Assembly: GCF_011762185.1 (NCBI RefSeq)
Contig: NZ_JAASQJ010000001.1
Coordinates: forward strand, 1,054,001 to 1,118,000
Length of the DNA stretch: 64,000 nt
Reading direction: 5' to 3'
Source: Dyadobacter arcticus
Lineage (GTDB): Bacteria; Bacteroidota; Bacteroidia; Cytophagales; Spirosomataceae
The notes under the pieces are model-generated. The model was not told the DNA's origin. It worked only from the letters and a program-made list of their open reading frames with translations, and made no database searches. This document shows, in pieces, positions 19,714-62,549 of this stretch (position 1 is the stretch's first letter; the number at the start of each line of letters is the position of its first letter). The position numbers and the translations under genes were made by a program.

Positions 19714-19824
19714 TTTAGCTTTTAGCTATTGGCTTTTAGCTCTTAGCTTTTATTATTTAAAAATTATGAATTTCTCATTTACATCCGAACTAGCTAACAG
19801 CTAACAGCTAACAGCTAACAGCTA
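19714..19824. repeat. Inverted heptad-repeat element B1 (TTAGCTN arrays)
   Basis: The left arm (about 19714-19751) consists of five 7-bp units, TTAGCTT, TTAGCTA, TTGGCTT, TTAGCTC and TTAGCTT. An AT-rich centre of about 40 bp follows. The right arm (about 19790-19824) is the reverse complement of five TTAGCTG/A units (four GCTAACA copies in the + reading). The transcript could fold into a long hairpin. The right arm supplies the TAG stop codon of the GH92 gene. The same architecture recurs at 59465-59558. Confidence 0.8.
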
Positions 19825-22314: not shown

Positions 22315-23709
22315 ATGACTGAACACTTAGATCGCCTGACCCCCCGCCAGATCGTTTTCGAACTTGACCAATACATTATCGGACAAAATGACGCGAAACG
22401 TAATGTTGCAATTGCTTTGAGGAACAGGTGGAGGCGCATGAATAGTCCGGCCGACATTCAGAAAGAAATCATACCGAACAACATATTAATGATAGGGGCG
22501 ACAGGTGTTGGTAAAACCGAAATTGCCAGACGTCTGGCTAAGATAGCAGATGCGCCCTTTGTGAAAGTGGAAGCCTCAAAATTTACAGAAGTGGGTTACG
22601 TCGGACGCGACGTGGAAAGCATGGTTCGCGACCTGGTAGAACAAGCCGTGGGAATGGTGCGGACGCAGAAAAAGGAAGAGGTGAAGATTAAAGCCGAGCA
22701 GGCTGTTGAAGATATTATTTTGGATGCGTTGATACCTCCTGTTCATGGAGCGGGAGTTGCAAAGGTAAAAAATGATAATGGTTCTGATGAAATGCCCGAG
22801 GATGATGCGGAGCTAAACCAGCGAACCAGAGAACGTTTTAGGGAAAAAATTCGCAATGGAGAACTGGACAACCGCAAGATTGAAATTGAAATCCAGCAAA
22901 ACCAGGCGCCTAGTGTGGGGATGATTGGTGGATCGGTGGACGATGTTTCCATGATGAATATCCAGGAAATGATCGGTAATATGATGCCGAGACGTGGTAA
23001 GAAGAGAAAGGTGACTGTGGAAGAAGCCAGGAAAATTTTGCTAGATGAAGAAGCTTTGAAGCTGATCGATATGGATGAGGTGAAGATGGAGGCGATCAGG
23101 AAGGCTGAAAACCTTGGGATTATATTTATTGATGAGATTGATAAGGTTGCATCCAGCAGATCGGGTGGCGGCGGCGGTCCGGATGTGAGCCGGGAAGGTG
23201 TGCAACGCGATTTGCTTCCAATTGTCGAAGGCAGCGCGGTGAATACCAAACATGGCGTAATCAACACAGACCATATTCTTTTTGTCGCGGCAGGCGCATT
23301 TCACGTTTCAAAGCCTTCGGACCTTATTCCGGAATTACAGGGACGTTTCCCGATCCGAGTTGAATTGAGTAGCCTGACGGAAAGTGATTTTTATCAAATC
23401 CTGAAAACGCCGAAAAACGCGCTGACCAAGCAGTACGTAGCAATGATGGAAGCGGAGGGCGTAAAACTGGAATTTGAAGACGGCGCAATCAAGGAAATTG
23501 CTAAAATTGCTTTTGAAGTCAACGGCGAGGTCGAAAACATTGGCGCCCGCCGTTTGCAAACGGTTATGAGTTTACTTCTCAACGATTTTATGTTCGATAT
23601 CCCTGACGTGATCGGACCAGATTCAAACCTGAAGGTAACAGCTGATATGGTTCATGAAAAACTGTCCCATCTGGTTAAGAATCGGGATTTGAGCCAGTAT
23701 ATTCTTTGA
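22315..23709 (+). CDS. hslU: HslU (ClpY) ATPase subunit of the HslUV protease
   Basis: The 464-residue protein has the N-terminal TPRQIVFELDQYIIGQ block, Walker A GATGVGKT (61-68) and the substrate-gripping pore loop GYVG (94-97). It also has a variable I-domain with acidic and Met-rich stretches, Walker B FIDEIDK, and sensor regions with QGRFPIRVE. The tail ends SQYIL, which docks on HslV. Length is normal. The hexamer unfolds proteins and feeds them to the HslV peptidase in the cytoplasm. No hslV is visible next to it, so the two genes are separated in this genome. It ends at the edge of a repeat element. Confidence 0.96.
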   Translation: MTEHLDRLTPRQIVFELDQYIIGQNDAKRNVAIALRNRWRRMNSPADIQKEIIPNNILMIGATGVGKTEIARRLAKIADAPFVKVEASKFTEVGYVGRDVESMVRDLVEQAVGMVRTQKKEEVKIKAEQAVEDIILDALIPPVHGAGVAKVKNDNGSDEMPEDDAELNQRTRERFREKIRNGELDNRKIEIEIQQNQAPSVGMIGGSVDDVSMMNIQEMIGNMMPRRGKKRKVTVEEARKILLDEEALKLIDMDEVKMEAIRKAENLGIIFIDEIDKVASSRSGGGGGPDVSREGVQRDLLPIVEGSAVNTKHGVINTDHILFVAAGAFHVSKPSDLIPELQGRFPIRVELSSLTESDFYQILKTPKNALTKQYVAMMEAEGVKLEFEDGAIKEIAKIAFEVNGEVENIGARRLQTVMSLLLNDFMFDIPDVIGPDSNLKVTADMVHEKLSHLVKNRDLSQYIL

Positions 23710-23883
23710 AAGGGAGGAAGGGAGGAAGGGGAGAAATGGAGGAAGGGGAGAAATGGAGGAAGGGGAGAAAGGGAGGAAGGGGAGAAATGGAGAAAGGGGA
23801 GAGAAATCTTCTCCCTTTCGTCCCTCATCCCTTTCCTCCCTTTTCCTTTCCTTTCCTCCCTTTTCCTTTTCTCCCTTTTTTTC
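23708..23883. repeat. Polypurine/polypyrimidine inverted element A1
   Basis: A purine-only arm (about 23708-23806) is followed by a pyrimidine arm (about 23807-23883) that is its imperfect reverse complement. The purine arm holds four 17-bp tandem units of the type GGAGAAATGGAGGAAGG at 23730-23797. The element starts at the hslU TGA and ends at the stop of the convergent esterase gene. It could form a hairpin in RNA and a triplex-prone tract in DNA, and it probably ends both transcripts. The same architecture appears at 58232-58763 and 62418-62549. Confidence 0.8.
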
Positions 23884-56925: not shown

Positions 56926-58233
56926 ATGGAAGTCAAGACACCTAACACAACAAGCAGCAACGGGTTCACCCCCGGCTCTTCGTCTATGGACAAAATTAAA
57001 CCGAAGAAATTCTGGACTACTCAGCGAATTGGTATTATTGCTGGTAGCACATTACTGGTCGCTTTTTTAGTATATCAATTCTTTTTTGCCGATAAACGCA
57101 GCAAGCTCAACGTAGAGCAGGACAAGCTAACGGTATCGACTGTGGCACAGGGCAAATTCGACGAATTCATTGTAGTTACCGGGGTAGTTCAGCCTTTGAA
57201 AACAATTCAGCTGGATGCGATCGTAGGTGGATATGTTACCGAGAAATTGATAGAAGGTGGTAACATGGTTAAACAAGGCGACATTCTGCTGCGTCTTGAA
57301 AACCAGAATCTGAAATTAAGCTTCCTCCAATCAGAAACGGAAGCGAGCCGACTGGTTAATGACTTGCAAAATACTCGTCAAAGTCTGAAAATAGCCCGTT
57401 TTACGCTGCAAAAGACATTAAGCGATCTCGATTTTCAGATTGATCAGGCAAAAGATGCGCATGATCGTAATACCAAGCTTTATAAAGATAAAGTGATCCC
57501 TGATGCGGATTACCTGAAAACCAAACGTGATTACGAGAAACTGGTAAAACAGCGCGAAATCGAAATCGAATCGCAGAAATATCAGGAGGAGAATGCTAAA
57601 ATGCAGATCACGCAATTGGAGAAAACATTGCTCAGCACGCAGAAAAACGTTGCGCTTTGGAGACAAACATTGGATAACCTTGTGGTTAAGGCACCGGTTT
57701 CAGGATTACTGTCATCCATGAATGTAGAGGTAGGATCGAATATCAATCAGGGCCAGAATATTGGTCAGATCGATGATTTGAATGGTTTCAAAATGCGTGT
57801 CAGTGTGGATGAACACTATATTTCAAGGATATTCTCCGGCCTCACAGGTTCCATGGAATTCAATGGCAAAGACTACGCCCTTAAAATCATCAAAATTTAT
57901 CCTGAGGTACTGAGCGGCAGATTCGAAGTTGATATGGATTTCGACAAAGGAGCGCCAGAATTGATCAAAAGAGGCCAGTCGGCACCGATCCGTGTGCAGC
58001 TTGGACAACCTTCGCAGGCAACATTGCTTCCCGTTGGCGGATTCTTCTCTGAAACAGGCGGTAACTGGGTATATGTACTCTCGGAAGACGGAAAACGCGC
58101 TTCGAAACGCACCATCACCCTCGGCCGCAAAAACCCAGAATTCTTCGAAGTCCTCGAAGGCCTGAAACCCGGCGAAAAAGTCATCACAAGCTCATATGAG
58201 AACTTTGGGGATAATGAGGTGCTTGAATTTTAG
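56926..58233 (+). CDS. Membrane fusion (periplasmic adaptor) protein of an ABC efflux system
   Basis: The 435-residue protein has an N-terminal membrane anchor (about 34-54). The first half of a lipoyl/barrel domain follows (VVTGVVQPLKTIQLDAIVGG and GGNMVKQGDILLRLEN, about 80-125). Next is a long alpha-helical hairpin (about 130-245) with Gln/Lys-rich heptads. The returning half has VVKAPVSGLLSSMNVEVGS and IDDLNGFKMRVSVDE, and a beta-barrel and tail ends the protein. This is the HlyD/MacA-type adaptor that links an inner-membrane ABC pump to an outer-membrane channel. It is the first gene of the operon. Its TAG lies at the edge of repeat element A2. Confidence 0.92.
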   Translation: MEVKTPNTTSSNGFTPGSSSMDKIKPKKFWTTQRIGIIAGSTLLVAFLVYQFFFADKRSKLNVEQDKLTVSTVAQGKFDEFIVVTGVVQPLKTIQLDAIVGGYVTEKLIEGGNMVKQGDILLRLENQNLKLSFLQSETEASRLVNDLQNTRQSLKIARFTLQKTLSDLDFQIDQAKDAHDRNTKLYKDKVIPDADYLKTKRDYEKLVKQREIEIESQKYQEENAKMQITQLEKTLLSTQKNVALWRQTLDNLVVKAPVSGLLSSMNVEVGSNINQGQNIGQIDDLNGFKMRVSVDEHYISRIFSGLTGSMEFNGKDYALKIIKIYPEVLSGRFEVDMDFDKGAPELIKRGQSAPIRVQLGQPSQATLLPVGGFFSETGGNWVYVLSEDGKRASKRTITLGRKNPEFFEVLEGLKPGEKVITSSYENFGDNEVLEF

Positions 58234-58688
58234 ATGAAGGGAGAAAAGGGATTAAAGGGGGAGAAAGGGACGATGGGGAGGAAAGGGAAGGAGGAGCGTT
58301 GAGTGAGTTGGCTTTCCTGGGAGAGAATATTAGAAGTTTGATTCCCTTGTTTGATTAGGTTTTGAATCATCGCTGATAAAAGACGGCTTTTGGATATTAA
58401 TTCATTCCCTTTTTCAGAAGTAACTAAGCCTATACCGATGGCAATATAGATTTGAGTTCTTAATTCACCTGACGATCCTTTTGCAATTCTAAGAAACCTG
58501 ATAAACTCCTTATTGGAATGACGTTCAAAACCCTCGGCAATATTGGAAGGAACAGAAACAGAGGCTCGACACATTTGGTCTTTGATGCCAAAATCTTTAC
58601 AGCCGCTAAGCATGTCATATACAAGGATGGATAATGATAGGCCATCCTGCCAAACTTTTAAATCTTCAAATTTTTCAACTTTTGACAT
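58230..58688 (-). CDS. Four-helix-bundle protein (23S rRNA intervening-sequence protein family), inside element A2
   Basis: From ATG 58688 (MSKVEKFEDLKVWQD) the frame gives 152 residues. The first about 118 match the four-helix-bundle family: FEDLKVWQDGLSL, KDQMCRASVSVPSNIAEGF, SNKEFIRFLRIAKGSSGELRTQ. The last about 20 residues (SSFPFLPIVPFSPFNPFSPF) are encoded by the polypurine repeat arm, so they are probably not part of the ancestral protein. The gene is antisense to the transporter operon and sits between inverted A2 arms. The family is known from rRNA intervening sequences and scattered genomic copies, and its function is unknown. Confidence 0.82.
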   Translation of the reverse strand: MSKVEKFEDLKVWQDGLSLSILVYDMLSGCKDFGIKDQMCRASVSVPSNIAEGFERHSNKEFIRFLRIAKGSSGELRTQIYIAIGIGLVTSEKGNELISKSRLLSAMIQNLIKQGNQTSNILSQESQLTQRSSFPFLPIVPFSPFNPFSPFI

Positions 58689-58763
58689 AACAAATTGGAT
58701 TGGTGATAGAATAAGGGTAATGATATAAAATTTATCCCTTTCCTCCTTCCCCCCTTTCCTCCC
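58232..58763. repeat. Inverted element A2 carrying a four-helix-bundle gene
   Basis: The left arm (about 58232-58296) is purine-rich with GGGAGAAA and GGGGAGGAAAGGGAAGGAGGAG. The right arm (about 58736-58763) is its pyrimidine-rich inverted counterpart, CCCTTTCCTCC and CCCCCCTTTCCTCCC. The four-helix-bundle gene lies between them in reverse orientation to the operon. The element starts at the adaptor gene stop codon and ends 15 bp before the ATPase ATG. Elements at 23708 and 62418 have the arms without cargo. Confidence 0.7.
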
Positions 58764-58778
58764 AAACTTTAAAAAACA

Positions 58779-59456
58779 ATGATTAAAATTGCCAACATGC
58801 ATAAGGTATTTTCTACGGAAGAAGTAGAGACCACGGCCTTGAATGGGATTGACATGGATGTCAGAGATGGCGAGTTTGTAGCGATAATGGGTCCTTCCGG
58901 TTGCGGAAAATCCACATTGCTGAACATCCTCGGATTATTGGATAATCCAAGCGAAGGTTCGTACGAGTTCTACGGGACCGAAGTTGCTAAAATGTCCGAG
59001 CGCCAGCGCGCCCAGATCCGTAAGGGAAACATTGGTTTTGTGTTTCAGAGCTTTAACCTGATCGACGAGCTGACAGTTTATGAAAACGTGGAACTTCCAT
59101 TGCTGTATCTGAAAACCCCTCCGGCTGAAAGAAAAGAAAAAGTAGAAGCTGCGTTGACGCGCATGAATATGATGCACCGCCGCAACCACTTTCCACAGCA
59201 ACTTTCAGGTGGTCAGCAGCAACGTACTGCCATTGCACGGGCCGTTGTAGCTACACCAAAAACAATACTTGCGGATGAGCCAACAGGTAACCTTGACTCT
59301 AAAAACGGGGAAGAAGTTATGAACCTGCTCAGCCAACTGAACGCAGCCGGGACCACCATTTTAATGGTAACGCACTCACCATACGATGCAGGTTTCGCCC
59401 ACAGAATTGTTAATTTGTTTGATGGTAAGATCGTTACTGAGAAAGTGCATGTTTAG
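58779..59456 (+). CDS. ABC transporter ATPase (MacB/LolD-like)
   Basis: The 225-residue protein has Walker A GPSGCGKST (38-46), the Q-loop FVFQSFNLIDELTVYENV, the signature LSGGQQQR (about 140), Walker B ILADEPTGNLDS and a switch His in MVTHS. The sequence class is that of MacB/LolD/FtsE ATPases. It energises the FtsX-type permeases encoded downstream and works with the adaptor encoded upstream, although element A2 now separates it from that gene. Length is normal. Confidence 0.95.
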   Translation: MIKIANMHKVFSTEEVETTALNGIDMDVRDGEFVAIMGPSGCGKSTLLNILGLLDNPSEGSYEFYGTEVAKMSERQRAQIRKGNIGFVFQSFNLIDELTVYENVELPLLYLKTPPAERKEKVEAALTRMNMMHRRNHFPQQLSGGQQQRTAIARAVVATPKTILADEPTGNLDSKNGEEVMNLLSQLNAAGTTILMVTHSPYDAGFAHRIVNLFDGKIVTEKVHV

Positions 59457-59464
59457 GAGGTGAC

Positions 59465-59558
59465 AAGCTTTTAGCTGTTAGCTATTAGCTTTTTTTGCTG
59501 ATATAGAACTTATATTATGTAATCGGAAACAGCTAACTGCTAACAGCTCAAAACAGCT
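59465..59558. repeat. Inverted heptad-repeat element B2 (TTAGCTN arrays)
   Basis: The left arm (about 59465-59493) holds units TTAGCTG, TTAGCTA and TTAGCTT. A centre of about 35 bp follows. The right arm (about 59527-59558), read on the minus strand, has TTAGCTG, TTAGCAG and TTAGCTG-like units. It starts 8 bp after the ATPase stop and ends directly at the ATG of the secreted protein gene. It therefore replaces that gene's leader. Confidence 0.75.
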
Positions 59559-62417: not shown

Positions 62418-62549
62418 AGTAGGGAAGAAGGGGAAGAAAGGAGGAAAAGGAGGAGGGATAAAAGAAAAAGAATAAAAAACCTCCCTCCTCCCACTCCTCC
62501 CTCCTCCCTTTTCTCCCTCCTCCCTTTTCTCCCTTTTTTCCCTTTTTTA
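62418..62549. repeat. Polypurine/polypyrimidine inverted element A3
   Basis: A purine arm (about 62418-62479, with GGGAAGAAGGGGAAGAAAGG) is followed directly by a pyrimidine arm (about 62480-62549, with CTCCCTCCTCCC repeats). It starts about 8 bp after the first permease stop and ends 3 bp before the ATG of the second permease. The strong potential hairpin may limit read-through between the two permease genes. Confidence 0.8.

Follow-up and report, generated by a model that had tools for sequence, protein, structure and literature searches.

The element closest to the one described here is the intervening sequence (IVS) of the 23S rRNA gene of Coxiella burnetii, in which, according to the available portion of the report (PMC4990558), a gene of the S23p family lies between terminal inverted repeats that are cut by RNase III in vitro. 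Tandem heptamers GACAGAT are found directly upstream of that gene, their number differs among strains, and mobility of the IVS is put forward there as a hypothesis (PMC4990558). In the literature covered, this kind of element has so far been described only as 23S rRNA IVSs, no function has been reported for the S23p proteins or for the rRNA IVSs, and the heptamer repeats of several phyla have no agreed cause. Here we describe an S23p gene enclosed by inverted polypurine/polypyrimidine arms in a 64-kb stretch of the Dyadobacter arcticus genome (contig NZ_JAASQJ010000001.1, positions 1,054,001 to 1,118,000; hereafter the window, meaning the whole stretch), where it stands between protein genes of an operon. 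This locus is one instance of a widespread element formed by the gene and its two arms. The genome of the window is called G000, other G numbers are relatives, and L numbers are loci.

The locus consists of the following features (window coordinates, strand, description):

56926..58233, + strand, HlyD-type adaptor gene, left flank of the S23p gene (frame list, profile match)
58230..58688, - strand, four-helix-bundle (S23p/IVP) gene of lineage A, a 152-codon frame (frame list; PF05635 domain at 58362-58667)
58232..58296, + strand, downstream arm, with its purines on the + strand, beginning at the HlyD stop codon (polypurine-run scan, sequence reading)
58735..58763, - strand, upstream arm, GGGAGGAAAGGGGGGAAGGAGGAAAGGGA along the strand of the gene (polypurine-run scan, sequence reading)
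58779..59456, + strand, ABC ATPase gene, right flank of the S23p gene (frame list, profile match)

An initial annotation of this DNA had assigned the gene to a family known from rRNA intervening sequences, and the profiles agree with it: the protein scores 110 bits (8e-32) against PF05635, its sole Pfam match (curated cut-off 33.8), and 104.5 bits (3e-30) against TIGR02436 (curated cut-off 24). The structural model predicts four helices (mean predicted local distance difference test score, pLDDT, 91.6), in a four-helix-bundle fold as in 2gsc. A search of the window against Rfam gave nothing at gathering score, and the locus lies between the HlyD and ABC genes, not inside a 23S rRNA gene. The S23p gene is antisense to both neighbours (56926-58233 and 58779-59456), as had been annotated. 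The two arms, likewise annotated as mutual inverted repeats, have in common the exact inverted 12-mer GGGAGGAAAGGG, and their inverted match of 17 is marginal against the best of 50 dinucleotide shuffles (16), which keep the purine-rich make-up. The S23p gene of the window is inside terminal inverted repeats, even if their match exceeds the shuffles only marginally. The whole element taken as an RNA hairpin has a fold z of -0.53, which gives no support to such a structure. The gene departs from the frame of its homologues at the 3' end, and the tail of the frame is rich in Ser, Pro and Phe; the downstream arm therefore forms part of the reading frame, a point that the annotation had overlooked.

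Purine/pyrimidine runs scoring at least 22 are present at three places of the window (23708-23883; 58236-58296 with 58735-58763; and 62421-62548) and in 0 of 5 mononucleotide shuffles of it.

Arms of S23p genes in the genus and in other phyla

A search of 59 genomes, G000 included, gave an S23p match in 48 of them. The genus set of 93 loci comprises three loci from G000, 30 from this search and 60 chosen from the same table, which was longer than the selection, with preference for the genus and for full-length matches. The arms were evaluated by an inverted-repeat score against 50 dinucleotide shuffles, and 90 of the 93 loci were testable. All loci were found through the gene. By comparison of their flanks the loci fall into recurrent sites, site 0 being the HlyD/ABC junction with 18 loci.

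Seventy-six of the 90 testable loci score above all 50 shuffles (mean 23.4 versus 11.6), the controls being 11.8 for arms swapped between sites and 11.1 for farther flanks. G000 contains three PF05635 genes, whose arms by reading are polypurine, GTTCGGNNTN and GAATGANT; compared with shuffles, L003 is clear (40 versus 18), the window copy reaches 17 versus 16, and L002 is a tie (19 and 19). The check for arms at other four-helix-bundle genes, proposed in the initial annotation, therefore yielded inverted arms by reading at all three genes of this genome. Mean arm similarity is 0.05 between sites versus 0.44-0.73 within a locus, a comparison that favours the latter, since the arms were picked by alignment. 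Within a site, and on unselected flanks, an arm matches its own partner better than the arms of other species (Wilcoxon p 5e-7, n=70), this coupling being clear at sites 0, 1, 3 and 5 and hardly detectable at sites 2 and 4. Unit periods of 7, 8 and 10 nt are all present within the genus. It is the gene family, then, that is the constant part of the element, and the repeat unit that varies, which lends no support to the notion of a polypurine repeat that picked up a cargo.

Beyond the genus, a wide set was assembled from a scan of GTDB contigs (80 loci, best of 543 relatives) and a scan of IMG/VR (31 loci). The arms beat all shuffles at 52 of 77 testable GTDB loci and at 21 of 28 testable IMG/VR loci. 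The passing arms have a sharp 7-nt period, with an identity of 0.59 at lag 7 and 0.56 at lag 14 (controls, 0.25), the viral arms giving 0.55 and 0.50, respectively. In the upstream arm G exceeds C at 70 of 76 loci of the genus set, and in the wide set at 38 of 52 loci from genomes and 18 of 21 viral ones.

The number of cores, i.e., AG or GG at unbroken 7-nt steps within 250 nt upstream of the gene, was counted at 105 loci regardless of the shuffle test. At least four cores were found at 84 of the 105, with exactly five at 40, four at 13 and six at 16. Farther windows gave at least four in 11 of 187 and exactly five in 3 of 187, mononucleotide shuffles gave 8 and 1 of 105, and steps of 6, 8 and 9 nt gave at least four cores in 13, 11 and 9 of 105. 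The wrong strand of the same flank had at least four in 35 of 105 and exactly five in 7 of 105, partly because AGCT is a palindrome. The downstream arms had at least four cores at 57 of 105 loci, exactly five at 29 and three or fewer at 48. Arrays of at least four cores stop a median of 30.5 nt ahead of the gene match. When the arms are aligned, matching falls to its minimum at the middle spacer position (0.57; expected 0.27) and peaks at the core G (0.97; expected 0.86). Across phyla, arms most often take the form of a stretch of about 31 nt in which five AG (or GG) cores follow one another every 7 nt. Arms, period and core number are thus directly observed. The Coxiella heptamer GACAGAT, in the part of that report available (PMC4990558), also presents AG at 7-nt steps when it is read in register and, together with the inverted repeats of that IVS, this makes the rRNA element look like one case of a wider class.

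Arm similarity correlates with protein similarity (Spearman 0.36 for the 73 loci of the wide set, reached in 0 of 1000 permutations, and 0.12 for the 149 loci together, reached in 0 of 500). The possibility that the loci with weak arms are rRNA IVSs was discarded, given that 20 such loci of the wide set had no Rfam match.

S23p genes are also found on plasmids and on putatively viral contigs. Ten of 24 plasmid records with an S23p gene were examined, all of them cyanobacterial, and an inverted match was seen by alignment in 10 of 10, heptamer-like by eye in most and with no shuffle control. The armed genes of plasmids L281 and L286 are within CRISPR (clustered regularly interspaced short palindromic repeats) gene clusters, one between cas6 and cas4 and the other between cas10 and a Cmr3 family gene, and those of L283 and L289 are near conjugation-annotated genes (TraM recognition domain, TrbI/VirB10). 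The 31 IMG/VR contigs with S23p genes (L170-L200) are putatively viral. A search of 50,697 phage records gave no match for one lineage B protein.

The HlyD/ABC junction across the genus

The ABC gene gives a single match at E <= 1e-80 in 40 of 41 genus genomes, and the junction was read by eye in these 40, G000 included. An S23p gene is present there in 20 of them: lineage A in ten, lineage B in seven, a third type in two and a broken B in one (G030). The arm unit of lineage A, the window type, is polypurine, and that of lineage B is GCTNTTRG. The 20 gene-less junctions contain a GCTNTCGG inverted repeat (nine), an AACCGC inverted repeat (two) or both kept ends of the B element (four, one of which, in G025, was aligned against G016), or are nearly bare (five, with 57-91 bp, some with a one-sided remnant). 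Fifteen of the 20 gene-less junctions thus hold inverted repeats. Two of the 20 junction copies, L065 (G035, lineage A) and L105 (G024, lineage B), depart from the frame close to the start, which indicates that the gene decays often.

Occupancy of this junction in 20 of 40 genus genomes makes the gene old there, and the idea of a recent lone insertion is rejected. The initial annotation had regarded conservation of the gene at this operon position in distant species as contrary to its proposal; by this standard the presence of the gene in those 20 genomes counts against that proposal, as examined within the genus.

The eight junction states require at least 19 changes on the tree of the flanking genes, lineage A alone requiring seven, of which well supported branches force six. 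In the sister species G006 and G021, the flanking genes are 95.7% and 96.3% identical and the A genes 69.7% over 300 nt, and the A gene of G006 is closer to those of G035 and G018 (80.3%) than to that of G021. The divergence extends from the HlyD stop codon to the A-run before the ABC start, and so the element differs as a unit between these two species, which may be due to transposition or to recombination in the flanks.

On the protein tree (91 rows), each site with at least two rows occupies one side of a branch, with the exception of site 0, which needs two changes; all ten groups together need nine changes, the minimum possible. This near-coincidence of protein clade and site is a direct observation. 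A single clade for site 0 is rejected (approximately unbiased test, p 0.0007, ten long rows left out), and by these sequences separate gene lineages occupy the HlyD/ABC junction. Site 0 may be the ancestral place rather than one occupied twice. The nearest kin of lineage A are L051 and L054 of G013, about 11 kb apart and by reading beside FtsX-permease-like frames; their arms are GGTTAA-like, and those of L051 fail to beat shuffles.

In sum, the annotated observation is confirmed, and of the annotated idea of a cargo-bearing repeat inserted into an operon it is the unity of gene and arms that stands, as seen in the difference between sister species, in the gene-less versions with kept ends and in the separate lineages at one junction, and it is the recent insertion of a polypurine-repeat cargo that does not.

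Gene-less copies of the repeats

Four gene-less inverted elements were identified in the window (none assigned a strand):

19718..19822, gene-less inverted GCTNTTAGC element, one mismatch per about 7 bp in the fold (RNA fold z -6.51)
23708..23883, gene-less inverted polypurine element (run scan; RNA fold of 23706-23845, z -1.36)
about 59467..59558, gene-less inverted repeat with unit GCTNTTAGC at the ABC/next-gene junction of the same operon (RNA fold z -5.65)
62421..62548, gene-less inverted polypurine element at the FtsX/FtsX junction of the same operon (run scan; RNA fold z -1.53)

The short GCTNTTAGC hairpins fold far better than shuffles and the polypurine ones do not; the one at 59467-59558, in the same operon as the S23p gene, had escaped the initial annotation. 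Five unit patterns occur at 110 places in G000 (46, 22, 20, 14 and 8), two-unit places being counted twice and two places being the arms of the other two S23p genes. Both orientations are found within 350 nt at 29 of the 110 places, and they are convergent in 29 of 29; the polypurine unit of the window is two-sided in only one of 20 places at the strictness of that pattern. A direct reading of 264 kb of G000 gave 12 unit-pattern places, four of them in predicted frames, two being the arms of the window element, and five of the 12 lying between two + strand frames. The pattern set misses some elements, e.g., 62421-62548.

Polypurine counts are raised in genomes with lineage A (p 2e-4). The unit GATAGAATGAGTGAATGATAG, predicted only with site-2 arms of that form, has 3-10 matches in G019, G023, G025 and G026 and, beyond the prediction, nine in G004 and 1-3 in six others. 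The GTTCGG unit has 14 matches in G000, is present in six other genomes and has none in G015 despite its GTTCGG-like arms.

The ABC/next-gene junction, read in 30 genus genomes (L106-L135), ranges from bare (1-37 bp) in some species to occupied by long regular heptamer hairpins in others, for example with nine perfect heptamers in G014 and in G012. Some copies are inside frames. At L039 (contig C2 of G000, near 908143-908162), a polypurine/polypyrimidine inverted repeat is in frame within an 803-codon open frame (between stops) that remains unbroken, gains a low-complexity stretch from the repeat and is one that we take to be leucyl-tRNA synthetase-like; at L045 (contig C4, near 456249-456268), a polypurine unit is in frame within a 455-codon frame, presumably a sulfatase.

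Interpretation and relation to known systems

The armed state of the S23p genes in most of the sampled relatives, which belong to many phyla, suggests that gene and repeats function together as a single element. We consider it somewhat probable that the gene and its two arms make up a unit that resembles an IVS but lies outside rRNA, and that the protein recognises the arms of this unit; both the binding and the mobility are inferred. One solved relative is a homopentamer. A five-subunit ring of this kind would bind one arm strand, as single-stranded RNA or DNA, with one AG or GG core per subunit. Each protein lineage is paired with its own repeat unit. The two arms could also pair into a stem, which may be cleaved, and the transcript would thereby be self-recognising, so that the element and the gene-less copies with the same arms could persist and spread, by a presumed route, using enzymes supplied by the cell.

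Several observations weigh against this interpretation. A clean heptamer period is absent from the window's own arms. Gene and repeat numbers agree only loosely: polypurine matches abound in G059, G062 and G012, which lack an A gene, G014 and G022 possess one but show 0 and 1 polypurine matches, and G000 has 102 GCTNTTRG matches and no B gene. Phylogenetic pairing (six pairs) went the same way in 1.3 and the opposite way in 0.0 on average, with little power, and the correlation between protein and arm similarity is confounded by relatedness and base composition.

The protein might instead bind RNA and regulate both its own transcript and the operons that carry the same repeats as junction hairpins, the differences between species being ordinary turnover and recombination. 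The coincidence of protein clade and site, the five of 12 unit places between two + strand frames, the two short gene-less hairpins that fold well above shuffles and the end of the arrays shortly before the gene match are all in agreement with such a role; however, the element is antisense to the operon at the HlyD/ABC junction, this junction is nearly element-free in close relatives, one element is in frame inside a coding gene, and the neighbours at other sites, which we take to be prfB, a sugar isomerase, leuD and argC, look functionally unrelated by eye, so that we regard this role as unlikely. The initial annotation came near to yet another explanation, i.e., repeats similar to miniature inverted-repeat transposable elements (MITEs), moved by an unrelated transposase and carrying the four-helix-bundle gene as a passenger. 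In such a case it would be difficult to understand that the unit differs per locus, yet one gene family is inside the arms in many phyla, and that arm similarity tracks protein similarity, though here relatedness confounds; we give this explanation very little credence, even with gene-less inverted copies, gene-less versions that retain both B-element ends and an insertion-like presence/absence between close species on its side. The very regular long arrays (nine perfect heptamers in G014, 30 cores in L182) and the joint change of both arms of one locus at several sites could also reflect junctions in which replication slippage and fold-back copying lengthen short repeats, S23p genes merely inserting there, but the core number peaks at five with no fall-off with length, polarity is convergent in all 29 two-sided places, and the heptamer rule holds in many phyla, which renders slippage highly improbable.

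Returning to the element formed by gene and arms, its similarities to described systems are partial. The 23S rRNA IVS has the same protein family, the gene inside terminal inverted repeats and the heptamers just upstream, and the differences from what is described in the available portion of PMC4990558 are that the window-type element lies between protein genes, that its unit differs per lineage and that gene-less copies are dispersed. The Xanthomonas GGGAATC and Nostoc GGGGAYT heptamers also form arrays, usually of four units, and two genomes have 70 and 75 convergent pairs; the subject of that study is quadruplex folding, and 'four helix' is absent from the text as available (PMC4692102). 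The TAACTGA repeats of Beggiatoaceae have as reverse complement TCAGTTA, which is the AGTTATC heptamer of arms found here, e.g., in L236, although they are direct repeats, mostly intergenic, for which a regulatory hypothesis was proposed, and the terms 'four helix bundle', 'intervening sequence' and 'S23' do not appear in the available main text (PMC4679880). A literature search gave no link between S23p genes and dispersed heptamer repeats in titles or abstracts, subscription journals and preprints being largely outside it, so that this is weak evidence of novelty.

As regards mobile elements, Avd of diversity-generating retroelements, as far as the available text goes (PMC10053308), differs in that a search of G000 gave no reverse transcriptase gene (PF00078). 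The same search was negative for 18 of the 41 genus genomes; G000, G006, G012, G014, G021 and G033 gave no match, and spread via a resident reverse transcriptase is accordingly not needed at present. Unlike a MITE or another non-autonomous DNA transposon, the copies have no common conserved terminal inverted repeat, and the unit differs between loci. The REP-associated tyrosine transposase (RAYT) genes and their repeat doublets (REPINs) also combine a repeat-flanked gene, dispersed inverted pairs and a gene lineage tied to a repeat type; here, in contrast to the system in the accessible part of PMC3116915, the protein is PF05635 and not a tyrosine (IS200-like) transposase, the repeats are short-unit arrays and not palindromic REPs, and the gene is inside the arms.

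A bolder proposal, possible but in our opinion doubtful, is that S23p proteins are the partners of scattered bacterial heptamer repeats in general, with a five-subunit ring reading five AG cores, spaced by 7-nt steps, in its own arms. The rRNA IVSs would then simply be the copies that had inserted into rRNA, and the arrays without a gene in cyanobacteria, xanthomonads, Beggiatoaceae and Bacteroidota would be non-autonomous offspring. Should gene and repeats prove to be a single system, each could be put to the test, as there would be a defined protein, a defined site (about 31 nt) whose cores can be counted, and natural variants in which lineage and unit change together. By class, the gene of the window belongs to the PF05635/TIGR02436 family, its location sets it apart from the rRNA IVSs, and RAYT/REPIN, MITEs and retroelements each have a defining feature that it lacks; if gene and repeats are indeed a single system, this would be a second bacterial partnership of a gene and its dispersed repeats, in addition to RAYT/REPIN, and one whose protein carries no recognised transposase domain.
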